Shown: positions 27,395 through 61,901 of the stretch, one piece after another
Layout: every line of letters begins with the position of its first letter
How positions within the stretch are numbered: position 1 is the stretch's first letter
From: a virus
DNA: 61,901 nt
Strand: one strand, 5' to 3'
IMG/VR virus record: IMGVR_UViG_3300046171_000186
Span: 1-61,901 of that record
Position numbers and translations under genes: made by a program
The notes under the pieces: model-generated
Seen by the model: only the letters and a program-made list of their open reading frames with translations
Database searches by the model: none
Told to the model about the DNA's origin: nothing

Positions 27395-28397
27395 GCGACT
27401 ATTACAAGATACAGATAATCGAAGATGGTCTGACGCTGAAATCAATGACTACCTCTTTGATGCTCAACACGAATTCGTCCGCCTCACTGGCTATCCCCTC
27501 TTAACCACCAACGTAGATCTTCAGGGGTTGGTTGCTGAGTATGATGTACCAACCGACCTGATGGATATTCAACGAGCACGGGTACGCAACCGTGCTGTTG
27601 AAATTCCTATTATCTCGCCTACCGTTCTCGACGAATCCTCTACTTTCTTAAACGAATCGGTTGATGCCGATTGGAGATCTCAGACAGGGCCAATCCGGGC
27701 TGTTGTCTTGGATCATCAGTCCGCTTCTAAATTTAGGCTCTATCCAATTCCTGCTGGCAACATTGTCAGTACGGTCACCGCTTCTTTTGACGCTACAACT
27801 ACAACGATCACTGTTTCAGATGCATCCGATCTAGCAGTCGGGATGTATGTTGGTGGGAATACCAATATTCCTGAAAAGACAGCAATTGCTTCGATCAGCG
27901 GAACAACAATCACCCTGACAAAAACCACAACCAACACTGGTGCGGTATCGAATGCATCCATCACGTTTGTATCGTCTAACGTCTTCAGTAATTATCTTTT
28001 ACAGGTTCCAACTACCGATTTGGACGCAATTAGTGGAACCGACATCTTATATGATTCTAGTGGGTTTTTTCAGGGTACTATCGTAGTTTTACCGTCTATT
28101 GAACTGCAAGGAACAAGGAACCCACCGAGAGATGCCCTGCAAACATTAGCCAATGTAGCAGGAGGAACAGACGTTCCCATTATAGGCTCTAGATTCCACG
28201 AAGCATTGGTATTTGGTGCAGTTGAACGGGCGTACTTAAAAGAAAACGAACTTCGTAATGTTCAGAAAAGCAGTGCTTTCCGAGAGAGATTCCTGCAGTT
28301 CGTTGCCGAAGCACGACGAGAAGAGCATGAGAATAGAATCCGCAGAGTAGGAGGAGCAAACCGAGTACGGATGAAAGTCAGTAGGAGGTGGGTATGA
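27357..28397 (+). CDS. Head-tail adaptor protein with immunoglobulin-like insertion
   Basis: The first 110 residues (LRTRVERLLQDTDNRRWSD, then INDYLFDAQHEFVRLTGYPL) match the phage adaptor family (DUF6682/gp4-like) that joins portal and tail. The C-terminal 60 residues (FHEALVFGAVERAYLKENE) complete that helical fold. Between them, about residues 140-215 form a Thr-rich beta domain resembling Ig-like insertions. AGGAG precedes the ATG. Confidence 0.75.
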   Translation: MSLNLGQLRTRVERLLQDTDNRRWSDAEINDYLFDAQHEFVRLTGYPLLTTNVDLQGLVAEYDVPTDLMDIQRARVRNRAVEIPIISPTVLDESSTFLNESVDADWRSQTGPIRAVVLDHQSASKFRLYPIPAGNIVSTVTASFDATTTTITVSDASDLAVGMYVGGNTNIPEKTAIASISGTTITLTKTTTNTGAVSNASITFVSSNVFSNYLLQVPTTDLDAISGTDILYDSSGFFQGTIVVLPSIELQGTRNPPRDALQTLANVAGGTDVPIIGSRFHEALVFGAVERAYLKENELRNVQKSSAFRERFLQFVAEARREEHENRIRRVGGANRVRMKVSRRWV

Positions 28398-30391
28398 CGG
28401 TTTCGGTTGTAGGGTCTAACAATGAAACGGTAGTCTTCCAGACTCGTAAAGTTAAAGGGTCTGACCTAGAAACGGACGCAACGCTTCTAGACCTTGATGA
28501 TATCCCAATGCCCTCCGGTGTATTGGATTCAAACAACACTACCTACGCTAATTTCTCTGCACTTTATGCAGACCTACCCACGAATCAAAATATCCGTGGC
28601 CCACAAGGCCCACAAGGCCCAGCAATTGACAGTGTATCGCTAGCACAGTCAGTCGATCTCTCCACCGTCACAATGACCTTCGGCTATACCTTGAACAATC
28701 AAGGGTATACCGTAGGAACCACACCCTCCTTTACGATTCCTGCTGGCCCAACTGGCCCTACTGGAACAGGCATTCAGTTCGTTTCGCACGATACTCAGAA
28801 TCATACTCTGACTTTTCAGTTTACAGATACGTTATCTGATTTGACGGTTGATCTACCGCAAGGAGACACTGGCCCTGCTGGTCGTAGTATCTCCAGCATC
28901 TCCAAGTCAGGAGATGTGATGACGATCAACTACGATGATGGGTCTTCTCCTACCCAGATCTCAGGAATTCGTGGCCCAGCAGGAGATGCTGCCACCATCA
29001 CAGTTAGCGCAACGAATACGTTAGCAGCAGGAGCATCTGCTACCGTTACTGAAACTGGAACCAGCAATTCTCAGAATCGGGAGTTAATCTTTGGCATTCC
29101 AGCAGGAGTAGACGGAGTAGACGGAGATGATGGGGTTTCTGTTACTGGAGTCAATCAAGTCAACTCCAGCACGATCAATTTTAGCCTATCCAACAGTACA
29201 ACCACTTCCAACATCACGCTTCCTTCTGCTACTGCCTCTTCGATTTTACCAAGCTATACCAATAACGCAGGAAAAGTTTTAGCAGTAAATAGCACTGCAA
29301 ATGACATTGAATGGATTGCTGGATCAGGAACCGGAACGGTCACAAGTGTCGGACTGACAGGTGCAAATGGGATCACTTTTTCTGGTGGGCCGATCACAAC
29401 CAGTGGCACGATTACCACCACTGTGAATGCTACTACGCTAAAAAGTCATTTAGCAATTGATTGGACAGACGTTGCCAATAAACCAAGTATTCCTGTTTCT
29501 GGAACAGACTTCGACCCAGTAGGGACAGACAACAGTACGAACGTCACACTCAACACCGCAAGTTATGATTATCTTTCTTTAGCTGGTCAAACGATCACGC
29601 TAGGACAAGTTGATTGGTCAACCGACATTTCAAATAAACCGTCAATCCCTGTAAGCGGTACGGACTTCGATCCTGTCGGAACTGATAATAGCACAAATGT
29701 AAGTTTAGTAACAACCTCTTATGATTACCTTTCTTTAGCTGGTCAAACGATTACGTTAGGTGCAATCGATTGGTCAACGGACATTTCAAACAAACCAAGC
29801 ATCCCTGTTTCTGGGACAGACTTTGATCCGGTTGGCACAGACAACAGCACGAATGTTTCGTTAAACACTACAAACTACGACTACTTATCAATCACAGGTC
29901 AAGCAATCACACTTGGTCAAATTGATTGGACAACGGACATTTCAAACAAGCCAACAATCCCTGTAAGTGGAACAGATTTCGATCCAGTTGGTACAGACAA
30001 TAGCACGGACGTTACTCTTAATAATACGACTTATAATTACCTCACAATTTCTGGACAGGCAATCACGGTTGGACAGGTTGATTGGACAACAGACATTGCA
30101 AATAAGCCAACAATCCCTGTTTCTGGGACAGACTTTGATCCTGTCGGAACCGATAATAGCACAAATGTAAGCCTTGCTACCGTTAGCAACAACTATCTAA
30201 GTCTCAGTGGGCAAGAGATCACAGCAGGAACAATCCCCTACCAGCTTGGAGGAACCGGATTAACAGCACTAGGTTCAGCAGGACAAGTACTAAAAGTCAA
30301 TTCAGCAGGAACCGCATTAGAATACGCAACTGACAATACTGGCGCAGCATCAGGCGCAGATCCCGTGGTAATGGCAATCGCATTAGGTTGA
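28394..30391 (+). CDS. Tail fibre with collagen-like and 51-residue repeats
   Basis: 665 aa. Short collagen-like Gly-x-y blocks (RGPQGPQGPA, GPTGPTGTG, QGDTGPAG, RGPAGDAA, near residues 65-200) are spaced between beta segments. Five tandem copies of a 51-52-residue unit (IPVSGTDFDPVGTDNST core) follow. The end, PYQLGGTGLTALGSAGQVLKV, is common in tail fibres. ATG 28394 is chosen because GGAGG lies 5 nt upstream and it overlaps the previous stop (ATGA). Probably a trimeric receptor-binding fibre. Confidence 0.85.
   Translation: MTVSVVGSNNETVVFQTRKVKGSDLETDATLLDLDDIPMPSGVLDSNNTTYANFSALYADLPTNQNIRGPQGPQGPAIDSVSLAQSVDLSTVTMTFGYTLNNQGYTVGTTPSFTIPAGPTGPTGTGIQFVSHDTQNHTLTFQFTDTLSDLTVDLPQGDTGPAGRSISSISKSGDVMTINYDDGSSPTQISGIRGPAGDAATITVSATNTLAAGASATVTETGTSNSQNRELIFGIPAGVDGVDGDDGVSVTGVNQVNSSTINFSLSNSTTTSNITLPSATASSILPSYTNNAGKVLAVNSTANDIEWIAGSGTGTVTSVGLTGANGITFSGGPITTSGTITTTVNATTLKSHLAIDWTDVANKPSIPVSGTDFDPVGTDNSTNVTLNTASYDYLSLAGQTITLGQVDWSTDISNKPSIPVSGTDFDPVGTDNSTNVSLVTTSYDYLSLAGQTITLGAIDWSTDISNKPSIPVSGTDFDPVGTDNSTNVSLNTTNYDYLSITGQAITLGQIDWTTDISNKPTIPVSGTDFDPVGTDNSTDVTLNNTTYNYLTISGQAITVGQVDWTTDIANKPTIPVSGTDFDPVGTDNSTNVSLATVSNNYLSLSGQEITAGTIPYQLGGTGLTALGSAGQVLKVNSAGTALEYATDNTGAASGADPVVMAIALG
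29456..30235 (+). repeat. Five tandem ~156-bp repeats in tail fibre gene
   Basis: Units begin with ATTGATTGG-like sequence (encoding IDW or VDW) and each encodes NKPSIPVSGTDFDPVGTDNS. Protein identity between units is high while DNA differs mostly at third positions, so the repeats are old or selected for protein sequence. Confidence 0.75.
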
Positions 30392-42972: not shown

Positions 42973-45078
42973 ATGGTTACATACACTACCCCTACTCCTG
43001 CACTTCCTACTGATTGGGATTATAGTTCTGATCGATACTATCATGAATATTGGAGTCACTTTAAAGAAAAAGCTTTGCAAGGAGAATGGGCTAGAGCACT
43101 CAATAGCAAATTTAATTCTAATTTCGGAGAAGCTACAAAAGATTGGACAGTTGAAGACTACAGGAATTGGGCCGAAGCAAGTGGTTTGACAGAGTCTATT
43201 AAAAAAGGTCTTCCATCGGATTATCAACAATGGACAAATCTATTAGCCAGTGATGACGTTGGTGGTATTCAGCGAGTAATAGGCGCTTTAGTGATGGATA
43301 AGAAGGGTCATTTTACCGATGAAAAATACGAGACTTCTTCATCTGATATAGCTTCTGTTGTTGAGGGGATGAGGTCATATGGTACTCAAAAAGATTTAGT
43401 AGCAAATTTAAGAGAAAAAGGAGGAACTGACGAGGAGATTCAAGGTATCCTTGATTCTCGTGATGGTTCTGCTGAAGGGTTTGAGTCTTTGCTAAATGAT
43501 ATAGAAAATTTATCAGGAGATGAGTGGAATAACTACATCAACGAAAACTTTGCCGATGAAGATATTCTGCCGAACGGGACGTTTGGTGAATATGAGATTC
43601 CAGCCAAAGTGACCTCTGTTGAAAATGCAACTACCCCTACTGAAACCGTAAATCAACAAGTCACGGAAGCAGTTGTTGGAGATAGTTCCTTAGATGCTCT
43701 AAGAAAAGAAGAAGGCTTTCGGGAAGAAAATGGCAGATACTTTGTTGGAGATCAGGAATACGCCTACGATGAAGAAAATGATCAGGTTGTTTTTGTAGGA
43801 GGTGAAAAAGCTGGAGATCGGTGGACACCGGAAGGCTCTGGCATGGCGAGTCAGTACGATCAACTGACAGAGCAAGAACAGCAAACGATTGCCCAACAGC
43901 AAGGAATTGTAGACGAAATTGTTGGTACAGACGAAATTGATCCGGTCACAGGTGAAAGGGTCACCCCCGGACTTGTCAATGAGTATGGTGATTTTGTCGA
44001 TAAGACCCTAACCGATATTGATGCGGACGATAATGATTTTGCAGGGCAGATTAACGCTGAACTGGATCGATTTCTTACCGGAAAAGATGCAGACGGAAAC
44101 AATATTCTTGATGATGAAGGCAACCCGATCAAAGGATTTTTAGACTATCAGACTGATCTAGAAACGGCAGGAACTAATCTAGAAACAGACCTGACAACGT
44201 TACAAGGTCTATATAACCAAGCATACGAAGGTTATGAAGGTGATCTAGATCCCCTACGACAAGAGATTGGTCGAATCCGAGGTAGACTTGGAGAAGTAGC
44301 CGATCAGCAGATGGGCGTAGCACGGGACGCAGGAGACGAAAGTTACTACAGCAGACTCAGTGATCTCTACTATCAAGACGCAAAAGACCAACTGGATGCA
44401 AGTGCTGCTGGCGCAAGAGAAACCTTGAACGAAGCTTATGCCAATGCAGGTCTTGATCCGAGTAGTCCAGCGTTTACTGCAGCTATGAAAGATCTAGCGA
44501 TGTCAAGGGCAGGAGCAGAACGACAAGCGCAAAGACAGTCGATTCTTGACTCCTACGGACTAGGTTCCCAGATGCTTTCCAACCGCACCACTGCTTTGTC
44601 CGGTGCAGGGAATGCGCTGGGGAACGAGATGGCTGGAGTACAAACGGAAATGGGTGCACTAGATTCTTTATATGGTGTAAAGCTGCAGGGATTGAATCAA
44701 CGACAAGACATGATCGGGCAGATCTACAATACGAAAGCCAATAACGCAAATGTAGGAATGCAGGGTCTGAACACGATACTGAACACAAACCTGAAGGGGA
44801 TCGATGCAAACCAGAACCAATTCAATACGAAAATCAATTTAAGCAATGACTTGTACAAGAACAAAGCTGGAATGTACGGAACAGCCTATGATGCCTTGGG
44901 CGGAATGCGTGGCATCTACGATAAAGAAGGTGGGGATCGGCTCAACACGTTGACTGAATTTGGACAAGACGCAAAAAGCGATGCTTTCATTTTAGAGTCG
45001 CTACAACAACAAGCTTCTCAAAATCCAAACTATGAAGTACCACAGTGGATTATTGACATTTATGGAGGGAATAAATAA
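42973..45078 (+). CDS. Internal virion / ejection-like protein, 701 aa
   Basis: Long helical protein. The N-terminus has Trp/Tyr-rich motifs (WDYSSDRYYHEYWSHFKEK). The C-terminal half (residues 390-680) is Gln/Asn/Ala-rich with repeated helical blocks (AGARETLNEAYANAGLD...). Position between tail and giant gene suits one of the internal proteins that podoviruses eject with DNA. No enzyme motif found. Confidence 0.65.
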   Translation: MVTYTTPTPALPTDWDYSSDRYYHEYWSHFKEKALQGEWARALNSKFNSNFGEATKDWTVEDYRNWAEASGLTESIKKGLPSDYQQWTNLLASDDVGGIQRVIGALVMDKKGHFTDEKYETSSSDIASVVEGMRSYGTQKDLVANLREKGGTDEEIQGILDSRDGSAEGFESLLNDIENLSGDEWNNYINENFADEDILPNGTFGEYEIPAKVTSVENATTPTETVNQQVTEAVVGDSSLDALRKEEGFREENGRYFVGDQEYAYDEENDQVVFVGGEKAGDRWTPEGSGMASQYDQLTEQEQQTIAQQQGIVDEIVGTDEIDPVTGERVTPGLVNEYGDFVDKTLTDIDADDNDFAGQINAELDRFLTGKDADGNNILDDEGNPIKGFLDYQTDLETAGTNLETDLTTLQGLYNQAYEGYEGDLDPLRQEIGRIRGRLGEVADQQMGVARDAGDESYYSRLSDLYYQDAKDQLDASAAGARETLNEAYANAGLDPSSPAFTAAMKDLAMSRAGAERQAQRQSILDSYGLGSQMLSNRTTALSGAGNALGNEMAGVQTEMGALDSLYGVKLQGLNQRQDMIGQIYNTKANNANVGMQGLNTILNTNLKGIDANQNQFNTKINLSNDLYKNKAGMYGTAYDALGGMRGIYDKEGGDRLNTLTEFGQDAKSDAFILESLQQQASQNPNYEVPQWIIDIYGGNK

Positions 45079-46730
45079 TGGCTAATCGATTTAGTGTAGG
45101 GGATACGCTAGGCGCACAGTTGTATAGCCGAGTAATTTCCAATCAGACACAACGCTATCTACAAGAAAAAGCATTAGAAGAAGAGCGTCAACGAAGAGAA
45201 GCGGAAAGGCGTAGACAAGAAAAGCAACGCAAGAAAGCTAGCGATCACGGTGCGTTTGGACAGACCCTACAAACAATCGGACAGATCGGTGGTGCAATTG
45301 CAGGAGGTCTCTCGACAGGGACACCGCAAGGTGCAATCGCAGGATCACAACTAGGATCTGCTGGGGCATCTACAATCATGAACCTGTTCCCAAATGTCGG
45401 AGGGACTGAACCAGATGGTAGTAATCCGTACTACGACAAACCCTCCGATATGGCTAAGTTGGGCAGTACCATTAATACAGGTCTGCAAGCATATGGGATG
45501 TATACCGATTCAGCAAAACCCAAGGCCAGAGAAGAAGTAATCAATCGATTGACATCAGAAATGAACAGTGGGGTAACGTGGGATGATAATGGGCAAACCC
45601 TTTCCTACTACAGTGCGTCCCCAGAGCAACTTGCTGCCCGGATTGAAGGTTTCGACGAGTATAAGAATGCTACTGGAATATTTGGGGAAGAGTTTTTAAA
45701 GGGTTCATCTTTGTCAATTGCCAATACTATTAACAGTGGCATCAGGCAAAGTATCCTGCCTCAAGTAGAGTTCACCAATAGCCTTCCGGACAGTGAGCAG
45801 AAACGGCAAGTACTGACAAATCTTCAAAATAAATATGGTCAAAACCTCACCAACCTACTACCAGAAGGTAGTTTACAAGCTATGGATGCTGGGGTTCAGC
45901 AGAATATTCAGAAAGCAAACCGGGCAACCGTACAGGAACAAACTGCTGAATTTGATAGGTTAGCGAAGGTAGCACTCGAATCGGCAAAAATGGGAAGTTA
46001 CGATGCATCGGTATTTACGACAGAAGTAGCAGATGCCAACCCTGAACTCGCACAACAATACAAGGCTTTAGCTGATAGCTATGTCCGAGAGGCAACTCTC
46101 AAGAAGCAAAACACCCAAACCAAGGCTACGCTTGAACTTCAAAAAGACCGATACGAACTATCTTTAAAGGCTCTAGAGAATACGCCAAAAGATTCAGAGA
46201 TGCACCCTTATCTAGTTGGTGTCACGTCAAAGTTGGCAGAGGATGCTATTGGCATTTCTGACGGACAAGCACTGTTCTCTCAACTTGGAAAAGACGTAAA
46301 AGCTGCCGACGATCCTACCGCAAAAAGCATTCAAGCCAATGCAGAACGGTTCGTCAATGCCCTGATGAGTCCGAATCCATCAACAGGTCAGCAACTAACC
46401 AAGGAAGAAACAATTGCCGTGATCCTTGACTCTCAAGCCCAGAAAGACTCGCAAGGAAGAATCATCCCCAACTCCTTGAGTCCAATCGGGGAAGCCATGT
46501 TAAAACAAGTGGAAAAGTCAAGGGACATTGAAAGCATTATAAATCAAACCAATTTGACGACTGCCTTGGAAGAAGCAAAAAGGAAGCAACAAGAACGTCT
46601 GTCCTTGTGGAACCGAACCTTAAACTTTTTTGGATTTGGAGATGATTCCGGGCCACAGGGTGGCGTTCAAGGAAACGTCACTGGACCGAGTGGAAATCAA
46701 GACATGTACAATTTCTTTATGTCGGAGTAA
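45078..46730 (+). CDS. Internal virion protein, 550 aa
   Basis: Charged N-terminal helix (LEEERQRREAERRRQEKQRK), then a Gly/Ala-rich hydrophobic segment (IGQIGGAIAGGLSTG, near residue 75) that could insert in membrane, then a helical body. This resembles T7 gp15/gp16-like ejection proteins by layout only. Starts overlapping the stop of the previous gene; the giant gene follows after 3 nt. Confidence 0.62.
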   Translation: MANRFSVGDTLGAQLYSRVISNQTQRYLQEKALEEERQRREAERRRQEKQRKKASDHGAFGQTLQTIGQIGGAIAGGLSTGTPQGAIAGSQLGSAGASTIMNLFPNVGGTEPDGSNPYYDKPSDMAKLGSTINTGLQAYGMYTDSAKPKAREEVINRLTSEMNSGVTWDDNGQTLSYYSASPEQLAARIEGFDEYKNATGIFGEEFLKGSSLSIANTINSGIRQSILPQVEFTNSLPDSEQKRQVLTNLQNKYGQNLTNLLPEGSLQAMDAGVQQNIQKANRATVQEQTAEFDRLAKVALESAKMGSYDASVFTTEVADANPELAQQYKALADSYVREATLKKQNTQTKATLELQKDRYELSLKALENTPKDSEMHPYLVGVTSKLAEDAIGISDGQALFSQLGKDVKAADDPTAKSIQANAERFVNALMSPNPSTGQQLTKEETIAVILDSQAQKDSQGRIIPNSLSPIGEAMLKQVEKSRDIESIINQTNLTTALEEAKRKQQERLSLWNRTLNFFGFGDDSGPQGGVQGNVTGPSGNQDMYNFFMSE

Positions 46731-46733
46731 CTA

Positions 46734-49700
46734 ATGGACGAAGCTTTACGAGGTGGACTGCCTGACCGTGAGTACGCAAAACAGTTACTGAAGAGAATCC
46801 GTGAACAGTACCGCAAAGGAGACTCGACGTACCGGGATTCAGATTTTCAACTCCGTACCCTGCTGAAACCTTTTGGCCTGAACGAAGCCCAGACCAATTC
46901 AATCGTATCCAATACCCTTGGGACATCCTACAATGTAGATACGGTAACTACAGGACGAGAAGGGGGTCTACTCAATACGTTAGGGGCCTATGTCCCGGTG
47001 GCCCCAGTAGACTACCTTTCCCAAGTAGCCAAAGGTGTACCCGAACAGTTTGGAAATTTTGGTCCACAAGTAGAAAAATCTCTGGCAAGTATCGGTCTGT
47101 CGATGACTGAAGCCGACCCAGATCCTGCTTACATGGCCCAGAGACAACCGGGGTTAGATCGGACCTCTGACAGCCGATTGCTCCAGAACACATTGAGTCT
47201 CCTTCCGGGTACTCCGAACGATGCTGATGCCTTTCGAGAATCCGCTCGAAACATCGAGAATTACATCAGCACAAACTTTGACACTCTAAAGAACAAACTT
47301 CGGTCTTTTGGAGGTATGGTCCAGAGTTGGGCTGAAGAGAACATCCCAACCTTTGAACTTCCCGGATACGACCCGGAATCCGCCCAGTTAGCCCAAGAGA
47401 GGCAGGAACGCAAAAACAACTTAGCCGACCCCCAGTTTAGACGACAAGAACTCCAACAAGTATTTGATAGAGCCTCTAAGGAAATAGAGGCAAACCCCTT
47501 ACCGTTCCCTCAGACAGCTTTTGAACGTGGTGCAGCAAGTCTAGGGGGTTCAATGCCTTCTTATGCGACAATGGCTCTTGCTCCGTTTGACCCTATAAAG
47601 TTACCGACAATCCTGTTGTCCAATGCTGTAGCAGGGCGAATGGTAGCCGGGGAAGCAGTTGAAGGAGTTGCCCAAGACGATGTCTGGCTGGAGATGTCGC
47701 AGAACATGACCGATGCTCAGAAACAAGAAGCACTATCATACATCAACCCTATTGTTAACTTTGAGGCGTACAATACCCGGACCGCAACCGAACTTGCTGC
47801 CGCAGGATCAGATGCCTTGTCTATGTTGCCTATCGGAGGTTTACCCACTCGACTAGGTCTAGACTTGATGGGGGGTGGTGCCAGTGAATTGATTGACTTT
47901 GACTTGGCAGGACGGGCCAGACGTAGGGGACTCCGGGCCTACGCCCAGAAGATGAACTTACCGATTAAGGACGATCCAAGGTTGCAATTGGTCAACCGTG
48001 GGGACTATGCCAAGGCATATCCTGCCCAAGCACAGGAAGCCTTCCAGACAGGAATCGTGATGTCTGGGGCAGCTTCGACTCCTACCACCTTAGTTGATTC
48101 GTTGTTTACGAATTACCGAAACCGACAGCCTCGAGATAATCAAAATCCTAATCAGAACCCCGATCAGATCCAAGCACTGACCAACACGGTGCTCAATAAG
48201 TTAAAGACTCTAAACAAAAAAGATCCGGAGCAAGTCCGAAGCTACCTTGAAAACCCGATCACCGAAGACGTAGTCCGGAACATTCAAGCGAAGAGTGATG
48301 CTGGACAGGCCCTATCTAAGGATGAAATCGAGGTAGCCAAACGGCACAATGAAATCGACACTCCGATCTTAGCGGCACCCGAAGCTACTCCGACAGATAC
48401 GGCACCCGATGCTCTTGCCGAAGGAGTGGCCCGAGAAGGAGAATACTACCAACGATTGCAGGAGAATGCTGCCCGAGTAGAGACTGTACCCACGGACTCA
48501 CTCCAAGATATTACCCGTCAAACTTATCCCGTCCAAGAAAACATATCACAGACGGATGCTGTTGCTTCCCAATGGGATCGGGCTAATAAGGCTCAAAGAT
48601 CTGACAAGTGGTTTGAGGGAGCAAATGCAAATGAAGATGTTGTTAAAGCATGGGATTCTATACGAAGTGAGGCAAGCACAATAGGTGGTCATGGAATGGA
48701 TAAAGCACTTACGCTAAGTCAAGGGCTTAAAAATCTCCGTACACTTTTAAAAGATGGAATTGACTATAGTGTCAATCCTGACACCGGACTCCGTAGGCAG
48801 TTTTTTACTGCGCCTTTGACGGTAACTGCCCAAGGGACAGGTGCTGGGGCAGGAACTGCAAGTGGTACGGCTTATACCGATGGGCCGTTTATTATTGTTT
48901 TTAGAGAAGGCTCATCCGGTAACCCTTCTATCAATGATGTTGCAGGAATCCTAGTTAATGAGGCTCACGCTGAGATTGCTCCTCTACTCCAAGCAGAATA
49001 CCCAAATTTAGTTATTCGTAGTTATGGTCAAATACAAGATGTAGTTGCCGCAGCAAAAACTATGCGGAAAACACCTGATGATTCCAACTCAAGGATCTTA
49101 CAGTCTGCTGGTCGACAGCCTAGTCTACCGGGTCTGGAAGAAGCACCACCTACTCCACAAGATCCTCGTTTTGAGCCTCTAACCTTTACGACAGACCGAG
49201 CACGATCCAAAGTAGAACAACAAGCGTTGCAGGACCGGGAAGCCCGGATGAAGCAGGAGGAAGAACAAAGAACGCTGAATCAGTTCTATGAAGACATTTC
49301 TGAAGACAGTCTGTTTTCAACCTTTGATCAAACTGAAGAAACCGATCTGGGTACAGTCCAGACTCCTCGAGATGAGTACGAATCTGCCGTAGCCTACGAA
49401 GATGCAATTCAACGACAGACCCAACAACTTGAAGACATCCGTAAGCTACAGCAGGACACTAAGACAATCCAAAAAGCCCGAGAAGCTGCCGAGAAAAGAC
49501 AAGAGGCTCTGATCAAGGCAGACCAACGGATTGCTGCACGAGACCTTGCCGCTGAAGACAAACAGAGAATTCAGGAGAAACTTGCGGCAGACAAACTGGC
49601 AAACCAGCAAAGACTAGCAGAAATCGCTGATATTCAACGTGGCTTGGACCAACGAGTCAAGGAAGCCAAGGCTACTCAGGTCACTGCAAAAGAGGAACTA

Positions 49701-52700
49701 CGAATTCAACAGCAAGATGCTCTGGAAGGCATGAACGAAGGTGCCCGGCTAGCACAACAACGAAGACTTCAAGAACAGGCAAACCAACAAGCCTTGATCG
49801 ATCAAGAGTTACGTTTACTAGATGAAAACGTAGCTAAAGCTGCATCTACACAAATTACTGCACGACAAGCGGAACGTGCCCGGCAGGAAGAACTGCTAAC
49901 ATCGAAGCAGGAAGAAGTAGATACTCAGATTGCCGAGGGTGCCCTGACACCTCGAGAGGCAACGATTGCCCAAGAAGAACAAGCCCGTGCTGAAGAGGAC
50001 CGGATTCTTCAAGAGATCGACCAGATGGAAGCAGACGAACGATCTCAATCACAAGCAGAAGAGGACCTTGCCGTAGAACAGGTTGCTGATCAGGAGAACC
50101 GAAAGCGTTTTGACCGTCTATTAGTAAACCTTTCGGATATGCAAACCCAACGGGACACGGAGCAACGTGTTCAAGCTATCTTTGGAGATCTCGAGACTTC
50201 CGAGAGGTCAACGGTTGCCGGGGGTGCTACTGTCAATCCGAACACTCCTCGTGGTGCCCAGATCCTGAAGCAACGAGAATTGGAGGTTCTAAGGGACGCA
50301 ATGGTAGCCGAGTTCCCGGGGGTGTCTCAAGTCGATGTAGTGGAGACTGTCGAGCAAGCCCGGGAGATGTTACCGGAAGGGGCCGAATTGGCAGACGACA
50401 CCGAAGGGTTTGCCTTCCGAGATGCCGAAGGCAATCCGAGGATTGTGCTGGTGGGTACCAACATCGAGAACAAGCAGGTTATCGAAGGGCAGATCGGAAA
50501 TGCTCTGGAGAATGCTGTTCGGGATGGAGTCCGGATCTTCTTCCACGAATCCTTGGGCCATGACGGGTTACGTCAGGCATTCGGAGATAACGAAGCTGCC
50601 CTGAATGACTTTACTGCCAGACTGTACGAAGCCCGTGAAGATGAGATTAACGACTGGGGTAGTCGCAGGTATTCTGAAGGTGACTGGTCAAAAATGAATG
50701 ATTCGCTAAAAGCGGAAGAGTGGCTGGTCCAGAACTTCACAGAAGAAGGAATTGCTCCGTCTGGAATCTTGGATTCGATCCGGGTTCTGTTCGGAAGCGA
50801 GTTCAATGATGCGTCGATCCGCAAACAAATGAACGCAATCCAGAACGCACTACGAAAAGGACGAAAGCCGAAGTTTACCTTGCGAACTCCTCAAGGTGCC
50901 CGGGCGAATGTCGGAGAAGAGATTCCTGTCGAAGAGATGGAGATCGAGATTCCCGGTCAGGATGAGCAAGCTGCACCGGAAGCCGAAGCGCAAGAACAAT
51001 CTCAAGGCCCCACAACAACCCCCATTGAACCTGATCCTGCTTTAGACAGTTTAATCAGATCACTTTACGAGAAAGGAATTACTCCTCCGTCCAAGTCAAT
51101 GGTTAGTGCCCGGAAAAAGAAATTCTTTATGGAGTTTCCTTTCCTGAAAAATACTGATCTGAACAGTGTTGATGCAGACCTAATCCAAGCAAGAATCAAA
51201 GCAGCACAAGACGAGATCGATTCGATTGTAAACCCGGTCAACTTGGAGATGATCAACAACCCGGCTACTCGTCGTGCAAGGGAACTGACTGCCGCACAAA
51301 AGAATAGAGTTCGAGGGTATTTAGCAGAGATCCAAGCTTTGCAAGGTATTCTTGGTTCTGCTCAAGTTGCACCTGTAGCACAGACAGAATCTACACCAGA
51401 ACGTACTTCTGAAACAACAGTTGAAGTAAATGGGCAGCAAGTAGAGCCAGAAAGTGTTCTACCTCAAAAATCACCGACTACACCTGTCCAAGATACCACA
51501 GAAAGTACATCCACGGATGTACAACCGATAGCGGAAGAGACACCGGAAGAAGTTGCTGATGCTGGGCCAGCAATCAGGATGAGTGCAGGTAGACCTAGTC
51601 TGCAGGAAGTAAAACAATTAGAGGTTGAAAAGAAAGCTGCACCGGGCTACCAGACCCCCAGACAGCTACAAGACTCTAGTACGGCTAGAGAGGAACTTGC
51701 CAACGAAGCAAAGAAGTACATTGCAGGAGAAATTGAATACGAGGACTTCCAAGCTGCCGTTCAGCGTTTAAATCCGATTCAGGCTCTAGGAGAGAAATAC
51801 GATATCCCCGGAGGAGTACCTGCTCCTGCAACGAATGAAGAGATTCAAGATGCTGTTGGTGTCAAGAGTCAGGGTAAAGTCCTTGGTGTAGATACAGAGA
51901 TTGCAGATGGGACTGATGTTGGTTTGAGGCTAGATATAAACGCTTATCAAAACAAAGATGTCTGGGTACCCACGATCCATGATGGAAGTGTTAAAGGGAC
52001 TCAGGGTAAAGTTCTGGCCTATGCTCCGGTCGCTAGGGTATTGGGGCATTCTTCAGACGGTAAAGTTAGCTTCGAGTCAAACCCGGATGCTGCTTTGAAT
52101 ATTGCTTCTGGCAAGATCAACAAGACTACTATCGCACGAGTCTTTGGGTCTTTCCAGAATGCCAACCCGGAGGAACTCTTTAATCAGGCTCAAGAATACA
52201 TTGCCAATCCGAAGCAAGGAAATGATGTCTGGGTTGAAATTGGGATGGACCCCACCAGAGGATCGTTCTTCTACGATAAAGCCAATGGTGACCCTGTTCT
52301 GACTGCTGACGAAGTAATTCAAGTTGGTGCTCTCGTTGTTGCGAAAAATCCTGAGTACGGCAACGTCAACAACATCAGAACGGTAGGTAGGACTAAGGGC
52401 ATTCCTGCAGGATTACGTTTTAGTAGCGGACGACGAAAGAAGCTAATCTCTGAACTGCCGATTTCCGGTATTCTAAGTGGAACAGAAGATCTAGGTACAC
52501 AACCCGGAGACTTCTTCCGTAACTTAGGGTTACCTGTACGAACTAAAAAAGATGGGACGGTCAAACCATCGGTCAGTGATGTCGGTAGTAGCCTTGAGAA
52601 AAGATATCGAAAGATTACCGGAAATGTTCCGTTTGAAGATACCCCAGAGCAGAGAGACATAATTGCAGAAGCTTTAAATGCTGAAATTGAATACCAACTG

Positions 52701-55700
52701 CAACAGGATAACTCTGGTGTGGGGTGGTATGATGCTACGGTAGCTAAAGCCCTTAACCGTTATGCAATTATGCATCCGGAACTTGCAGATAATGCAGATG
52801 CCCAAACAGTATTTAAAGCTATTCTTGCAATTACTTCCCAAGGTGAAACTGTTCCTAAAAACGGAGACTACGCACACAAACTTTATAGCGAATACAAGAA
52901 GACAGGAAGAATCCCAACAACTTTTGAAGGAGGAAAAGAAGGTCCGATTGTCTTAAATAACCTTCAGTTTCTGCAGAAGTTGATCGATAAATACGGGGTA
53001 AAAGACGCAAATGAATTACTGCTTGCTAAAATGCCAGTACGAGATGTCAATAAACTTTCTGCACAATTTGGAAAAGCTGGAGTTGGTGGCGAACGGATGG
53101 ATACGGAACTGCTTGGTGCTGCAGCGTTCGGTCCAAAGATCGGTATCTTCTTCTCTAACCTTTCAGGCCAATATGACTTCCCTACCATTGATTTGTGGTT
53201 CCAAAGAACAATGGGCCGAATGCAAGGTCAACTGTTTGATTTCAAACCCGGTACAGATGAAAAGTATCGAAAGTTATTAAGAGACCATTGGGCCAAAAAT
53301 CCTAAGAACTTTACACCCTCTAAAACCGTTAAACAAATCCCTGAGGATGATTTATCACTTAACCTATGGGCAAAAGAAACTCTTAACGAATATGCAAAAC
53401 CAGTCCCAACAGGAAAATTCAAACCGGATGGAACGCCAATAAAACGGAGTTACCCCGTAGAGAAGAAAACGCTTGAGACAAATGCCGCAAAGAATATAAT
53501 TGAAAACCTAACAAAGTTAAAAGGTGCTCCTACGGGTGCAGATCGTATTTTAACTCGAGATGTGCTCCAACGCATTCAAGATAAGAGGAAGAAGAATAAT
53601 CAGGAGACCCTGACGGTTCCTGATATGCAAGCTGTCTTATGGTACTTAGAAAAAGATCTGTATACTGGTCAGGGTGCTGGAAACGTAACCGCAGAGAAAG
53701 CTGATTATGCTGATGCTGCAGAACAAGTCGTGGAGACCTATGGAAACAAAGAACAAAAAAGACAACTACAACGGGCCAGAATTTCCGGAAATGACCCCCG
53801 AGGAGATACAGGAGCAAGTAGCCAGAACACAGGCACTGACCCGGTCTCTGGACGAGAATCCGGAAATGTGGGACGAACTGCTGAAACGAGTCCAGTCCGG
53901 AAATCAGACAGTAGGGCTTCCAGCCTCTCAGGATATGGAGACGGAGGAAGACGGAGTGCTGGAAGAGTCACGAAGGCGTTGGAAGGTACGCCATCCACAA
54001 AGGGGCCGAACGGAACAAGGGTCCAAGGTCCGATCCAAGAATTAGTCGATGTAGCAGAAAAATATGCTGCAGCTAATGGCATCAACTATAAACGACAAGC
54101 TCAGTATGTAGAAGTAGATGAAGAACTTGCAGGACGGATTGCTGATGCCTACGCAGAAATGGAACATACTCCGAATGATCCTACCGTAAAAGCTGCATAC
54201 CGTGACCTGATTGATCAGACTCGTGCCCAATACGAAGCCTTAGTGGCAGATGGATTTGAGTTTACCTTTTTTGATGGGGAAACAGATCCATACGAGGGCA
54301 GACCTTTCCGGGCTATGAATGATTTAAGATTCAATAAACGGATGGCTGTTTATGGAACCTATGATGGCTACGGAACAGAAGGAATAACTAGAGGAGATTT
54401 AGAAGACAACCCAATGCTAGAAGATACTGGCCTTCAATGGGAAGACCAGAATGGTGAAATGCGCCCGGTGATGGCAAACGATTTATTCCGGGCAGTTCAC
54501 GATGCATTTGGGCATGGACTTGAAGGGGCCGGGTTTAGAGCAAGAGGGGAAGAAAATGCGTGGCAAGCTCACGCCCGTTTATTCACAGGTCCAGCTTTAG
54601 GCGCAATCACGAGTGAAACACGAGGGCAAAACTCGTGGCTAAACTACGGGCCTTACGGAGAGACCAACCGGACTGCTGGTCTAGAAGATACGGTCTTTGC
54701 TGATCAGAAGACAGGCTTGATGCCTGAGTGGACTTGGCAAGAAGGCAAGGCCCCAGATATGCCTGAAGACACTCAAGAAGAAAACGTTAACGATGGTGCG
54801 AACTTGACAGGCACCCGGTTCTCTGCCGGTCGACGACGACCTCTCCAGAACAACCCCGGAGGACGTGCCAAGAAAGAGTTCGGAGCACTCAAGGCTCTAC
54901 GCAAACTCGATCATTTCTTTGACCATAAAAGCAACCTGCCAGAACGGGAAGCGTATGAACTGCTGACCCAGAAGGCCCGTGGAGAGATGACCAACTACAT
55001 TGAAATTGGTCACGAACTCGGAGACATTTTCTTAAAGGCGAAAGAGAATGAACAAGCTGCCATCTACAACTACCTAACCGAACGCAATGCGAACGCTAAT
55101 CTAGTCCCTGACAGAAAAGTTAGAGGTTCTAACAAAACCCTTCGACAAGCTGCCGTACAGGCCAAGCAGGACATTATTCAGATCGGAGAAGATCTGGTTC
55201 GTCTAGGAATGCTCGATCCGGATGCATACGCCAACCGAAAGGGTAAGTATCTACCTCGTGTCTATTTAAAGTATCTATTCAGTGAAGACCACCAGAAGAT
55301 CTTGTCTACAGGCGGATCGCTGAAGATGTCGGACTTAGGGTATCTAAAGAAACGTAAAGACGTAGATGCTCTAGTACGCAATCTGGTCCTTGGGGAGATC
55401 AAGTCCCCGGGGTACTTGGTCAGCAAGACCCTAATGCAGTCTGGGCAGGACATTGCCCGGATGCAGTTCCTGAAGGACCTCTCCGGAAATCAAGAATGGG
55501 TTCTGCCTGAAAGCTATATCAATGTTAGCTATGCCAATGAAATCGAAGGTATCCTACAGGCCAACCCGGCACTTCGGCAGCAACTGCTGAACGAAGGACT
55601 CCCTCCAGCCGCACGACAGACTGCCACAAGACGGGTGACCCCAGAGTATCTTGCGGCAGAAGCTAGACGACTTCGAGAACAAGTTTTACCGTCTAAGAAA

Positions 55701-57374
55701 GAAGGATCTGCCCAGAAGGAGTTGGTCCGGAGAATGATCGAAGTGTTGGATCAGAAGGTCTCTCAGGCCCGAACCAATCAGGAATACGATCCTGAAAACT
55801 ACACGCAACTTCCGGATACCTCCCGGTACGGAGACCTTCGAGGTGCGATTGTCCGTAACGAAATCTACGATGACCTAGTCGGATCTCAGGAGTTATTTAC
55901 CCAGTCGGGTATGGAACGAGGGCTGAACTACCTGACCTCCCTAATGAAGTGGGGCCTGACTGCAGCGAACCCGGCAGTCTGGGCGAATAACCTACGATCC
56001 AACACGGCAATGATGCATTTTGCTGGGTTGCCTTTCCATCGTAGTTTCGACTATCGCTTTAGAGCCTTAAAACAGATGCTGACCAACGGTAGTCGCTATC
56101 AGGCGTTCAAGGAGCAAGGACTAACCCTGTCCACCTTTGCGGCAGACGAACTTGGTCGGATGGAGACGAGACTGGCCCAATCGTTATCCCCGGAAGACAA
56201 AAAGATCATCGGGCAACCTCTACGCTATTCGTTGCCTGTTTTGACTGCAGAAAGATTAGGCTCTTTGATCTACAACGCCTTTGGGGATTTCTATCAGGGC
56301 ATGGAGGTCATGGACAAGCTAGCCTTGGGCATGTACCTAGAAGATCACGGCCCTAGCCTTGGGGCACCTTTTGCGAACAATCGGAAGATGACGACCGAAG
56401 CAGCAATGCGAGAGGCAAACAAGGCGTTGTTTGATTACACAGATGTTCCTGACTGGTTGCGTCGAAGTCGCAGAAGCTTACTAGGTGCCCCGTTTTTAAC
56501 GTGGACCTACAAGGCAGCACCGTACTTGACAAAGATGGCTGGTGACCCGAAGAAGCTTCTCAGGGCCGCAACATGGTACGGTGGCCTGTACACCTTGATG
56601 GCAATGCGAGAGGCAGAACTAGATGATGAAGAACATGATGCGTATTATAATGGTCTGCAAGACTGGCTAGCGAAACGTCAGTTGTTCTCGATCCCCCTAC
56701 CACAAAAGGACGAGAACGGAATGGTTCAGACAGAGGACTACACGATGTTTGCGCCTCATGCCTTCCTGATGAATGCTGCCGCAGATGTTCTACCGGGTGG
56801 ACGTTTCAGTGCGTTGGATGTTGCCAAAGACCTTGGCTTTGCATCCCATCCGTTGCTAGAGTCTACAATGGAATTGATCTTCAATAAGGACTCTTTCACC
56901 GGACAGCCGATCTATCGCAAGACGGATACATCGACCCAGATGGCAGACAAGATACGGGAGCACTACATGGACAACTTGCTCCCACAGTTTATCGCACCAA
57001 ACGGGTGGACTACCCGGATGATCGAGTTGTCTTCAGAGAATCCAAATGTGTTTGGACCCTCTAGTGTTTTGGACCGACAGGGGAACCCTACCCGGACGTT
57101 AGGCCAACAGACACAACGGGTAGTACCGTTCATGCCGAATGTTTACCCGTCAGATTTACGCAAGGGATTAAAATACGGAAGGCAGGATATTCTTCGTTCT
57201 ATTCAGGCTCTAGCAAAAGAGTATTCGACGAACCGAAGAAAGTATCGAGGAGATAAAGAAGCGTTAGCGGAGTTGAAAGCGGAGTACGATGCAGAAAGGG
57301 CAAGACTACAAGGGTTGCTGCGAGAATTTCCTACGGTAGGACAACTACCCAGATTTGAAGAGTATGCAGAGTAA
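46734..57374 (+). CDS. Giant polyvalent internal virion protein (3,546 aa)
   Basis: One uninterrupted 10.6-kb frame, 17% of the genome. Domains seen: a 'GMDKALTLSQGL ... FFTAPLTVTA' module (about 640-780); a Gln/Glu/Arg coiled coil (820-1125); a zincin-like peptidase with HESLGH at 1271-1276 (1170-1370); a GLRLDINAY / WVEIGMDPTRGSFFYD module (1700-1900); a helical module with TIDLWFQRTMGRMQG (1930-2330); a module with HDAFGH at 2589-2594 and GEENAWQAH after it (2490-2690); and an LPD38-like C-terminal part (2700-3546; WANNLRSN near 3080). This layout matches phage 'polyvalent proteins' thought to be injected with DNA and to counter host defences. It may also help in DNA ejection. Confidence 0.85.
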   Translation: MDEALRGGLPDREYAKQLLKRIREQYRKGDSTYRDSDFQLRTLLKPFGLNEAQTNSIVSNTLGTSYNVDTVTTGREGGLLNTLGAYVPVAPVDYLSQVAKGVPEQFGNFGPQVEKSLASIGLSMTEADPDPAYMAQRQPGLDRTSDSRLLQNTLSLLPGTPNDADAFRESARNIENYISTNFDTLKNKLRSFGGMVQSWAEENIPTFELPGYDPESAQLAQERQERKNNLADPQFRRQELQQVFDRASKEIEANPLPFPQTAFERGAASLGGSMPSYATMALAPFDPIKLPTILLSNAVAGRMVAGEAVEGVAQDDVWLEMSQNMTDAQKQEALSYINPIVNFEAYNTRTATELAAAGSDALSMLPIGGLPTRLGLDLMGGGASELIDFDLAGRARRRGLRAYAQKMNLPIKDDPRLQLVNRGDYAKAYPAQAQEAFQTGIVMSGAASTPTTLVDSLFTNYRNRQPRDNQNPNQNPDQIQALTNTVLNKLKTLNKKDPEQVRSYLENPITEDVVRNIQAKSDAGQALSKDEIEVAKRHNEIDTPILAAPEATPTDTAPDALAEGVAREGEYYQRLQENAARVETVPTDSLQDITRQTYPVQENISQTDAVASQWDRANKAQRSDKWFEGANANEDVVKAWDSIRSEASTIGGHGMDKALTLSQGLKNLRTLLKDGIDYSVNPDTGLRRQFFTAPLTVTAQGTGAGAGTASGTAYTDGPFIIVFREGSSGNPSINDVAGILVNEAHAEIAPLLQAEYPNLVIRSYGQIQDVVAAAKTMRKTPDDSNSRILQSAGRQPSLPGLEEAPPTPQDPRFEPLTFTTDRARSKVEQQALQDREARMKQEEEQRTLNQFYEDISEDSLFSTFDQTEETDLGTVQTPRDEYESAVAYEDAIQRQTQQLEDIRKLQQDTKTIQKAREAAEKRQEALIKADQRIAARDLAAEDKQRIQEKLAADKLANQQRLAEIADIQRGLDQRVKEAKATQVTAKEELRIQQQDALEGMNEGARLAQQRRLQEQANQQALIDQELRLLDENVAKAASTQITARQAERARQEELLTSKQEEVDTQIAEGALTPREATIAQEEQARAEEDRILQEIDQMEADERSQSQAEEDLAVEQVADQENRKRFDRLLVNLSDMQTQRDTEQRVQAIFGDLETSERSTVAGGATVNPNTPRGAQILKQRELEVLRDAMVAEFPGVSQVDVVETVEQAREMLPEGAELADDTEGFAFRDAEGNPRIVLVGTNIENKQVIEGQIGNALENAVRDGVRIFFHESLGHDGLRQAFGDNEAALNDFTARLYEAREDEINDWGSRRYSEGDWSKMNDSLKAEEWLVQNFTEEGIAPSGILDSIRVLFGSEFNDASIRKQMNAIQNALRKGRKPKFTLRTPQGARANVGEEIPVEEMEIEIPGQDEQAAPEAEAQEQSQGPTTTPIEPDPALDSLIRSLYEKGITPPSKSMVSARKKKFFMEFPFLKNTDLNSVDADLIQARIKAAQDEIDSIVNPVNLEMINNPATRRARELTAAQKNRVRGYLAEIQALQGILGSAQVAPVAQTESTPERTSETTVEVNGQQVEPESVLPQKSPTTPVQDTTESTSTDVQPIAEETPEEVADAGPAIRMSAGRPSLQEVKQLEVEKKAAPGYQTPRQLQDSSTAREELANEAKKYIAGEIEYEDFQAAVQRLNPIQALGEKYDIPGGVPAPATNEEIQDAVGVKSQGKVLGVDTEIADGTDVGLRLDINAYQNKDVWVPTIHDGSVKGTQGKVLAYAPVARVLGHSSDGKVSFESNPDAALNIASGKINKTTIARVFGSFQNANPEELFNQAQEYIANPKQGNDVWVEIGMDPTRGSFFYDKANGDPVLTADEVIQVGALVVAKNPEYGNVNNIRTVGRTKGIPAGLRFSSGRRKKLISELPISGILSGTEDLGTQPGDFFRNLGLPVRTKKDGTVKPSVSDVGSSLEKRYRKITGNVPFEDTPEQRDIIAEALNAEIEYQLQQDNSGVGWYDATVAKALNRYAIMHPELADNADAQTVFKAILAITSQGETVPKNGDYAHKLYSEYKKTGRIPTTFEGGKEGPIVLNNLQFLQKLIDKYGVKDANELLLAKMPVRDVNKLSAQFGKAGVGGERMDTELLGAAAFGPKIGIFFSNLSGQYDFPTIDLWFQRTMGRMQGQLFDFKPGTDEKYRKLLRDHWAKNPKNFTPSKTVKQIPEDDLSLNLWAKETLNEYAKPVPTGKFKPDGTPIKRSYPVEKKTLETNAAKNIIENLTKLKGAPTGADRILTRDVLQRIQDKRKKNNQETLTVPDMQAVLWYLEKDLYTGQGAGNVTAEKADYADAAEQVVETYGNKEQKRQLQRARISGNDPRGDTGASSQNTGTDPVSGRESGNVGRTAETSPVRKSDSRASSLSGYGDGGRRSAGRVTKALEGTPSTKGPNGTRVQGPIQELVDVAEKYAAANGINYKRQAQYVEVDEELAGRIADAYAEMEHTPNDPTVKAAYRDLIDQTRAQYEALVADGFEFTFFDGETDPYEGRPFRAMNDLRFNKRMAVYGTYDGYGTEGITRGDLEDNPMLEDTGLQWEDQNGEMRPVMANDLFRAVHDAFGHGLEGAGFRARGEENAWQAHARLFTGPALGAITSETRGQNSWLNYGPYGETNRTAGLEDTVFADQKTGLMPEWTWQEGKAPDMPEDTQEENVNDGANLTGTRFSAGRRRPLQNNPGGRAKKEFGALKALRKLDHFFDHKSNLPEREAYELLTQKARGEMTNYIEIGHELGDIFLKAKENEQAAIYNYLTERNANANLVPDRKVRGSNKTLRQAAVQAKQDIIQIGEDLVRLGMLDPDAYANRKGKYLPRVYLKYLFSEDHQKILSTGGSLKMSDLGYLKKRKDVDALVRNLVLGEIKSPGYLVSKTLMQSGQDIARMQFLKDLSGNQEWVLPESYINVSYANEIEGILQANPALRQQLLNEGLPPAARQTATRRVTPEYLAAEARRLREQVLPSKKEGSAQKELVRRMIEVLDQKVSQARTNQEYDPENYTQLPDTSRYGDLRGAIVRNEIYDDLVGSQELFTQSGMERGLNYLTSLMKWGLTAANPAVWANNLRSNTAMMHFAGLPFHRSFDYRFRALKQMLTNGSRYQAFKEQGLTLSTFAADELGRMETRLAQSLSPEDKKIIGQPLRYSLPVLTAERLGSLIYNAFGDFYQGMEVMDKLALGMYLEDHGPSLGAPFANNRKMTTEAAMREANKALFDYTDVPDWLRRSRRSLLGAPFLTWTYKAAPYLTKMAGDPKKLLRAATWYGGLYTLMAMREAELDDEEHDAYYNGLQDWLAKRQLFSIPLPQKDENGMVQTEDYTMFAPHAFLMNAAADVLPGGRFSALDVAKDLGFASHPLLESTMELIFNKDSFTGQPIYRKTDTSTQMADKIREHYMDNLLPQFIAPNGWTTRMIELSSENPNVFGPSSVLDRQGNPTRTLGQQTQRVVPFMPNVYPSDLRKGLKYGRQDILRSIQALAKEYSTNRRKYRGDKEALAELKAEYDAERARLQGLLREFPTVGQLPRFEEYAE
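53740..54045 (+). CDS. Nested out-of-frame gene inside the giant gene, 101 aa
   Basis: METKNKKDNYNGPEFPEMTP, then EEIQEQVARTQALTRSLDEN and EMWDELLKRVQ, reads like a real acidic helical protein. In the giant frame the same DNA encodes a Ser/Gly/Arg linker. GGAG lies 5 nt before the ATG. Either a true overlapping gene, or two compensating frameshifts displace the giant frame here. Confidence 0.45.
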   Translation: METKNKKDNYNGPEFPEMTPEEIQEQVARTQALTRSLDENPEMWDELLKRVQSGNQTVGLPASQDMETEEDGVLEESRRRWKVRHPQRGRTEQGSKVRSKN

Positions 57375-61005: not shown

Positions 61006-61901
61006 TTACTTCCTGTATCGACGTGATTGATACCCTTCTACCTCGACTGGGATTCCTTCTGCCCAGTCTGGAGTAGTACACATAAGCTTTTCAAACTGCT
61101 CCGTATTATTGGAACTCTCCTCTGGCTCTTCGCAGACGATCTCATCGTGAACCGTCATCGTAATGCTGAACCCGGCACGATCCATCGCTAACATGGCATG
61201 GCACATCAGATCTCGAGCAATCGCTTGCACGATATTTTCGACAATCAGACCACCATACAAGGCTTTGCTGAAGGACTTGCCCATGCCATAGGACTTGTAG
61301 GCTAGTTGAGGTAGCCAACCTTCCCGGGAACCATCGATGTGTGGCTTTGGAAAAAACAAGACTCGACCGGAAGGCAACATCAGTTGTAGGTCTTGCACTC
61401 CTTTAGACCGTCTAAAAGCGATCAGAGAATTATTTCTTCCAAAGCGGATCATCTTGTCTGGGTTGTGGTAGGCTGTCTTCATAGCCTCTTCGGACTCTCG
61501 CCAGAAAGCTGGAATCTGTTCGTAGTAATTGCGGTAGATCTGAATTACTTCCATTGCCTCTGCTTCATCCACTTCGAGTCCTGCATTCAAGCAACTCTGA
61601 TAGAACTTCTGGAAACCCATGCCGTACCCGGCACCCAGAATTGCCATCTTACCAAACTGTCTTTCTTTCTTAGTCACCTCCTTCTCTGGCTTGTTATAGA
61701 TTTTGGCAGCAAGTTGCACATAGGCATCTTCCCCGTTGTGGTAGGCAGTCAGCAGTTTCTCCTCCCCGGCAATCCAACTCAGGACCCTTGGTTCAATCGA
61801 CTTATAATCGTAGACCCAAAGGTTGTAGCCTCCTTCTGCGACAATCAGAGATCGGATCATCGAAGAGATCACAGGCATTGGTGCGCCATGCTCTTTGTTT
61901 A
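61006..61901 (-). CDS. polA: DNA polymerase I-type (family A), C-terminal part; continues from position 1
   Basis: Codons 354-651 of polA. Motif A VYDYKSIEPRVLSWIAG (near residue 383), motif B RQFGKMAILGAGYGMG and motif C TMTVHDEIVCEEP (His605-Asp-Glu) are intact, so the polymerase should be active. At the position equivalent to E. coli Phe762 the residue is Leu (RQFGKMAIL: fourth after the Lys). The codon split by the window ends is G|TA (Val), so the reading frame closes exactly. Confidence 0.95.
   Translation of the reverse strand, partial: NKEHGAPMPVISSMIRSLIVAEGGYNLWVYDYKSIEPRVLSWIAGEEKLLTAYHNGEDAYVQLAAKIYNKPEKEVTKKERQFGKMAILGAGYGMGFQKFYQSCLNAGLEVDEAEAMEVIQIYRNYYEQIPAFWRESEEAMKTAYHNPDKMIRFGRNNSLIAFRRSKGVQDLQLMLPSGRVLFFPKPHIDGSREGWLPQLAYKSYGMGKSFSKALYGGLIVENIVQAIARDLMCHAMLAMDRAGFSITMTVHDEIVCEEPEESSNNTEQFEKLMCTTPDWAEGIPVEVEGYQSRRYRK

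Follow-up and report, generated by a model that had tools for sequence, protein, structure and literature searches.

A giant modular protein ending the late operon of a 62-kb podovirus, with candidate cut sites at its module junctions

Giant virion proteins and the setting of the gene

Very large proteins carried in virions have been described in several phages. In the 61-kb Burkholderia podovirus JC1 the virion module ends with gp69, a chain of 4,515 aa that was detected in virions by mass spectrometry with 51 peptides; the same paper mentions LPD38 once (PMC9144972). Phage P1 packages the large antirestriction proteins DarB and DdrB in its head, DdrB being cut before packaging, and DarB (250 kDa, about 40 copies) relies on an N-terminal signal for its packing (PMC9024508). 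The virion RNA polymerase of the podovirus N4 is an ejected protein of ~3,500 aa with a zincin-like domain, and it is packaged uncut although it bears an MPTase, which counts against cleavage (PMC5512222). The broader class of polyvalent proteins was set out by Iyer et al. in 2017, who recognized among their MPTases one clade with HExxxH plus a Glu, described a core of a helix, three strands, an HExxxH helix and a Glu helix, and proposed that MPTases process their own chains (PMC5512222).

The window analysed here is the whole of a virus record of 61,901 bases. Since a DNA polymerase A frame continues across the record ends (61006-61899 joined to 1-1060), the record is circular, complete and circularly permuted, and its source is a podovirus with a circular genome of ~62 kb. 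In a PHROG scan the late operon matched a terminase, a portal/head-tail adaptor, a major head protein and a P22/T7-type "internal virion protein". The final gene of this operon, beyond which lie replication genes in the opposite orientation, encodes the giant protein.

42973 to 45078, + strand: upstream late gene, 701 aa, abutting the next gene; 74-80% identity in the closest relative phage
45078 to 46730, + strand: late gene directly 5' of the giant gene, 550 aa; 57% identity in the closest relative phage
46734 to 57374, + strand: gene of the giant protein, in all probability polyvalent, 3,546 aa, 393.8 kDa

As the initial annotation had stated, this 10.6-kb gene carries no frameshift, running as a single unbroken frame from the ATG at 46734, with GGAG immediately 5' of it and the stop of the preceding late gene at 46730, to the stop at 57374. 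An open frame of 3,546 codons cannot arise by chance and the gene is real; homologous giants of 2,000-5,000 aa are known. The protein had also been presented as a megadalton-scale cargo and a notable investment for a 62-kb phage. However, a single chain amounts to 0.39 MDa, so that the cargo would reach a megadalton only if several copies were packed, and the gene takes up 17.2% of the record as against 22.1% of JC1 for gp69. Because JC1 spends the larger share of its genome, the size of the protein is not exceptional.

Other genes of the record drew our attention in passing. The frame at 5342-6451 has the look of a tyrosine recombinase/integrase, and for this reason the podovirus may be temperate. 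A ribonucleotide-reductase-like fragment of 334 aa lies at 7901-8905; given the versions of 540-1,040 aa in relatives, the gene may here have been split or interrupted. The frame at 18967-19587 resembles flavin-dependent thymidylate synthase (ThyX), with a 45% identical ORF in L068, and that at 28388-30391 encodes a tail-fibre-like protein with collagen-like GPQGPQGP and ~six copies of a ~40-aa repeat (SGTDFDPVGTDNST...).

Module layout of the giant protein

Scans of the whole protein and of slices against Pfam and NCBIfam returned nothing informative, the sole PHROG match was PHROG 3170 (function unassigned) at residues 2581-2639, phmmer against PDB sequences gave chance matches only, and a nucleotide search of phages found no match. 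With no Pfam match to go by, modules were located through relatives, using translated searches of phages and IMG/VR followed by local profile searches. Relatives of D and Z were recovered with alignments that included one relative; a single-sequence pattern scan of D had yielded three short weak matches only. Five modules are defined by homology, and together with a divergent N-terminal region and a coiled-coil-like stretch they bear out the earlier count of at least six.

46734 to 49103, + strand: N-terminal region, divergent, residues 1-790, of which 354-581 match the N-terminal part of the L100 giant (26%, E 6e-13)
49281 to 50123, + strand: E/K/R/Q-rich, coiled-coil-like stretch by composition, residues about 850-1130
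50181 to 50993, + strand: module Z, zincin-like metallopeptidase domain of HExxxH type by invariant residues and predicted secondary structure, residues 1150-1420
50544 to 50561, + strand: HESLGH, active-site-like motif of Z, residues 1271-1276, by invariance among Z relatives
50718 to 50720, + strand: E1329, third-ligand Glu of Z, by invariance among Z relatives
51693 to 52391, + strand: module A, residues 1654-1886, related to Pfam PF25735 Phage_L5_gp82 / PHROG 586
52557 to 53762, + strand: module B, residues 1942-2343, related to Pfam PF23802 DUF7178 / PHROG 3842
53976 to 54779, + strand: module C, residues about 2415-2682, conserved NDLFRAVHDAFGHG...GEENAWQAH...SETRGQNSW, PHROG 3170
54498 to 54515, + strand: HDAFGH motif of C, residues 2589-2594, by conservation in 74 sequences
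54867 to 57344, + strand: module D, LPD38-type C-terminal domain by hhalign to an LPD38 set, residues 2712-3537

Module Z offers the clearest enzymatic signature. Across 17 sequences sharing 17-38% identity with it, the sole invariant columns are H1271, E1272, H1276, G1278 and E1329, in other words the HExxxH motif with its downstream Glu, and the predicted secondary structure (H23-44, E50-54, E76-80, E86-91, H108-133 with HESLGH, H174-187 with the Glu) fits the MPTase core of an N-terminal helix, three strands, the motif helix and the Glu helix. The zincin-like peptidase proposed at the outset is thus upheld: judged from its residues, Z is a zincin-like peptidase domain of the HExxxH clade and a putative protease. 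Foldseek of the Z model against the PDB gave 2ejq_A as best match at E 0.39, below significance, with ACE2 and YbeY metalloenzyme chains among the other weak, non-significant matches. HExxH or HExxxH occurs in 84 of 97 non-redundant giants (4.2 expected), and one relative in the Z family matches PHROG 873, "head and packaging".

At the other end of the chain, D aligns with LPD38-type C-termini over 424 columns (hhalign probability 99.1, E 9.6e-19), the comparison set having been purged of all D members beforehand. The LPD38-like end suggested earlier is therefore recovered by profile-profile comparison only and not by direct HMMER; as the giant, its slices and the D homologue in L102 all score under the Pfam gathering threshold for LPD38 (PF18857), we call the module LPD38-type rather than LPD38. 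Wherever D/LPD38 occurs in giants it is last, at a median of 5 aa from the end (n=76).

The three modules between this pair match no family of known function. C is the most conserved of them, with 307 relatives in one scan, the best 80 of the 307 at 60-73% identity. Among 74 sequences H2589, D2590, H2594, E2606, H2613, Q2632, N2633 and S2634 are 100% conserved and E2607 99%, and its H/D/E/R/N/Q residues are kept at 95-100%. From these residues it is plausible that C is a metal-dependent enzyme. The second metal enzyme that had been suspected thus gains an invariant HDxxxH/EE/H pattern, but not a recognizable solved fold: the structure model of C has pLDDT mostly 80-97, and Foldseek of the B+C model against the PDB found no solved structure alike while matching many viral polyvalent proteins. 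For none of Z, A, B and C did Foldseek return a significant solved fold. Aromatic amino-acid hydroxylases carry HExxGH, and a likeness of HDAFGH to these enzymes was considered; the Foldseek search of the B+C model gave it no support. A relationship between C and Z was likewise dismissed on profile comparison. The labels given to C are inconsistent (crystallin, lysin, glycosylase); family searches lend no support to "crystallin beta/gamma", "lysin", "glycosylase" or "DNA repair protein", the names carried by relatives. Stand-alone relatives of C are seen in actinobacteriophages, namely mycobacteriophages and Gordonia phage Skog. The domain (HDAFGH...GEENAWQAH...SETRGQNSW) is common to hundreds of phage giants, e.g., L010-L089, and has no Pfam model.

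The five modules are true units because they are shuffled among giants, with orders C-A, C-B-LPD38, B-C-A, B-C-LPD38, A-C-LPD38, Z-A-D, Z-A-B-D and others in relatives. The most informative comparison is with the closest relative phage (L100/L138, IMGVR_UViG_3300044676_003044). The two phages share the neighbouring genes at 89%, 74-80% and 57% identity, and in this relative a giant of 3,048 aa keeps Z (37%), D (42-44%) and a weak N-terminal stretch, while ASCH and ADP-ribosyltransferase (ART-PolyVal) domains occupy the place of A-B-C. The two thus share the Z-...-D chassis and matching upstream genes and form a natural cargo-swap pair; L137 is a second relative with this chassis. In L040 and L055, C and D are on separate genes, therefore the modules can work as separate chains. 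A ferritin/rubrerythrin-looking ORF sits between those separate genes (L040:11017-11534, L055:11713-12229). Very probably, to judge by these sequence comparisons, the giant is a mosaic in which a fairly constant chassis of Z and D holds exchangeable cargo modules, here A-B-C.

How this chain relates to described systems can now be stated. With the polyvalent proteins of Iyer et al. it shares very large size, unrelated domains, a zincin-like MPTase, an LPD38-type end and a late-gene setting; the parts of that paper available to us do not name A, B or C as domains (PMC5512222). JC1 gp69, DarB-like and belonging to the Bcep22-like phages, resembles it as the giant ending the virion module of a podovirus of ~61 kb, but has a helicase-type (HepA) match that our protein, compared by description, does not. 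The methylase/helicase and ParB domains of P1 DarB/DdrB are unmatched in it, no DNA methylase-helicase dyad of the DarB-like kind emerging from Pfam and PHROG scans, and the same scans matched neither the RNA polymerase domain of N4 nor a transglycosylase of the T7 gp16 type. What was found is a chain of several unrelated domains, independently distributed and in shuffled order, with known polyvalent classes represented by the Z residues (MPTase) and the D profile-profile match (LPD38), and with ART-PolyVal matched in relatives sharing the chassis; its gene adjoins late virion genes, the portal, head and internal-virion-protein matches falling in the same operon. On these grounds the initial reading as a polyvalent protein ending the late operon stands, and we regard the giant with considerable confidence as a new family member of the phage-type polyvalent proteins and as virion cargo.

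Recurring peptides at the module borders

A short peptide that the initial annotation did not mention recurs between the modules: a near-identical RxS[AS]GR stands wherever Z meets A, A meets B, B meets C and C meets D.

49098 to 49115, + strand: copy 1, LQSAGR, residues 789-794 (S[AS]GR scan)
51576 to 51593, + strand: copy 2, RMSAGR, residues 1615-1620, Z|A border (S[AS]GR scan and module borders)
52416 to 52433, + strand: copy 3, RFSSGR, residues 1895-1900, A|B border (same basis)
53949 to 53966, + strand: copy 4, RRSAGR, residues 2406-2411, B|C border (same basis)
54816 to 54833, + strand: copy 5, RFSAGR, residues 2695-2700, C|D border (same basis)

The five copies of S[AS]GR compare with 0.15 expected, and none of 5,000 shuffles reached this number. 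The LQSAGR copy near 791 adjoins no homology-defined module, and there is no copy directly N-terminal of Z. Both modelled copies, at 1615 and 2406, fall in segments with pLDDT <50, consistent with exposed linkers. Over nine giants, which were picked for a clear motif and whose patterns were tidied by eye, none of 41 motif copies lies within a module and 25 lie at most 45 aa from a module edge; random placement was as extreme in 0 of 20,000 trials. A blind search of all gapped words in our protein alone was marginal, 2 of 60 local shuffles being equally extreme, so the case rests on position and on the relatives.

In those relatives the motif follows the chassis and not the module, since the same module bears different motifs and since SFSSNR is common to L137 and L100 despite their differing middle regions. 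The L100 giant differs from ours in having SFS[SA]NRQQT as its junction motif in place of RxS[AS]GR; S[FL]S[SA]NR brackets its ASCH (1651, 1789) and ART (1930, 2127) domains, and its final copy stands ahead of D. The L140 giant has copies of NISxSxR type on either side of A (1240, 1486) and of ART (1486, 1711), with another before D (2145). Module A is flanked by RMSAGR/RFSSGR in our giant, by NISSSLR/NISFSKR in L140 and by RYSPSR/RYSPGR in L030, and motifs around B, C or A elsewhere include RYSPxR (L030), RYSGR (L070), IRxSR (L042) and RSTAR (L018). Within one gene the Ser codons of the copies mix TCN and AGY and the Arg codons CGN and AGR; as codons vary so freely among copies, it is the peptide that is selected and not the DNA.

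A generic R[FY]S was considered as a universal junction signal. In held-out giants it is enriched in module flanks (9 vs 2.4 expected) and not inside modules (14 vs 13.2), but in an independent set of giants retrieved through module A none was seen around A (1.0 expected), and the idea was rejected. A giant of that set, L179, brackets A with a motif of its own, R[FM]QAP. A clear repeated motif is present in only about a dozen of >110 giants: the junction motifs are lineage-specific and not universal, and are real in those lineages. That they are functional as peptides seems probable. Separately, NPDIR[FY]S (or DPDIR[FY]S) recurs across lineages (L030, L043, L088, L011, L093, L142, L148, L010), with 10 unique matches in 0.38 million residues of ORFs of at least 1,400 aa and 3 loose matches in 1.9 million residues of other ORFs.

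Packaging, processing and the alternatives

By the precedents of JC1 gp69 (PMC9144972) and P1 DarB (PMC9024508), on which its packaging and ejection are argued, the giant would be a virion-borne cargo chain, entering the cell probably with or ahead of the DNA, and D and/or the N-terminus may position it in the head or ejection apparatus. The Z metallopeptidase may cleave the chain at these junction motifs, be it ahead of ejection, in the course of it or afterwards. Individual proteins of about 30 kDa for A, about 56 kDa for B and about 32 kDa for C would result, leaving predicted pieces of about 86 and 92 kDa from the N-terminal/Z part and of about 97 kDa for D. The initial annotation had guessed that the peptidase cuts the chain, a guess strengthened by the repeated motifs that mark the module borders; it had further assigned the cargo to action on host defences, which is unsupported, A, B and C matching no functionally described family. 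We favour as best overall explanation, with modest confidence, a polyvalent cargo chain with a Z + D chassis and candidate cut sites at its junctions. For the parts taken singly, the chances that the motifs are putative cleavage sites at all seem to us slightly better than even, judging from their sequence and placement, and that Z itself is the enzyme cutting them falls somewhat below even.

The strongest competitor would keep the chain intact and make the motif a docking tag that binds a virion or scaffold component, a chaperone or a translocon, by which modules are loaded, threaded or unfolded. Such a tag would be expected to track the chassis rather than the module, as the motif does, if the partner is phage-specific; a short N-terminal sequence does pack P1 DarB (PMC9024508), and the N4 polymerase is packed unprocessed despite its MPTase (PMC5512222). 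However, the copies sit at module edges and not in any one region, P1 manages with a single N-terminal signal, and the peptidase motif in 84 of 97 giants would be left unexplained, so we consider docking rather unlikely. Somewhat less likely still is that the motif is cut by another protease, either of the virion or prohead or of the host (e.g., arginine-specific), with Z an effector on host proteins. That motif-bearing giants span HExxxH and HExxH classes and yet have motifs alike (R/K, aromatic, S, R) speaks for this, but the PHROG scan found no prohead protease among the late genes and every motif-bearing giant listed has a peptidase motif.

Should the protein instead have a structural role alone, in ejection or as a conduit like T7 gp16 and with no active enzymes, its conserved motifs would be structural. 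Its place as last gene of the late operon after two late genes resembles an ejection-protein cassette, the "head and packaging" match in the Z family is in keeping with it, and fold searches yield no known enzyme. Against this, ART-PolyVal and ASCH domains are present in relatives built on this chassis, the residues conserved in Z are exactly HExxxH plus Glu, the near-invariant residues of C are of the H/D/E/R/N/Q kind, and no transglycosylase or RNA polymerase domain was matched in Pfam or PHROG; we hold this reading to be improbable. That the peptides are recombination scars, shared border DNA enabling module exchange, would suit modules that have clearly been swapped between giants. Yet the copies differ at nearly every synonymous position, leaving no shared DNA to recombine, and chassis carrying the same module have different motifs; the codon divergence largely refutes this idea, which we rate as very improbable.

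If the cargo-chain reading with cleavage is followed, some polyvalent proteins may be true polyproteins, in which chassis-specific cleavage peptides bracket each cargo module and are recognized by the in-chain metallopeptidase, a generalization we offer tentatively. Equally tentative is the list of candidate chassis-specific cut peptides: RxS[AS]GR, SFSSNR, NISxSxR, RYSPxR, RYSGR and R[FM]QAP. The main text of Iyer et al. mentions no junction motif, linker or cleavage site (PMC5512222), and within the open-access literature covered here the junction peptides may for this reason be new. For this protein and several lineages they predict, explicitly and in a form open to refutation, where the chain would be cut and how large its fragments would be. 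A candidate cultivable system for processing is Halomonas sp. NO4 (L093, NZ_WHMA01000002.1), where a 301-kb contig encodes a 3,606-aa giant with B, C and LPD38, probably of a prophage, with RFSLR at the edge of C.

The analysis also brings out C as a phage domain that is strongly conserved, has been shuffled widely and has neither a Pfam model nor a solved relative. Were the polyprotein reading true, any domain could be exchanged into a chassis given a local cut site, and such giants would be natural modular systems for delivering several proteins together.
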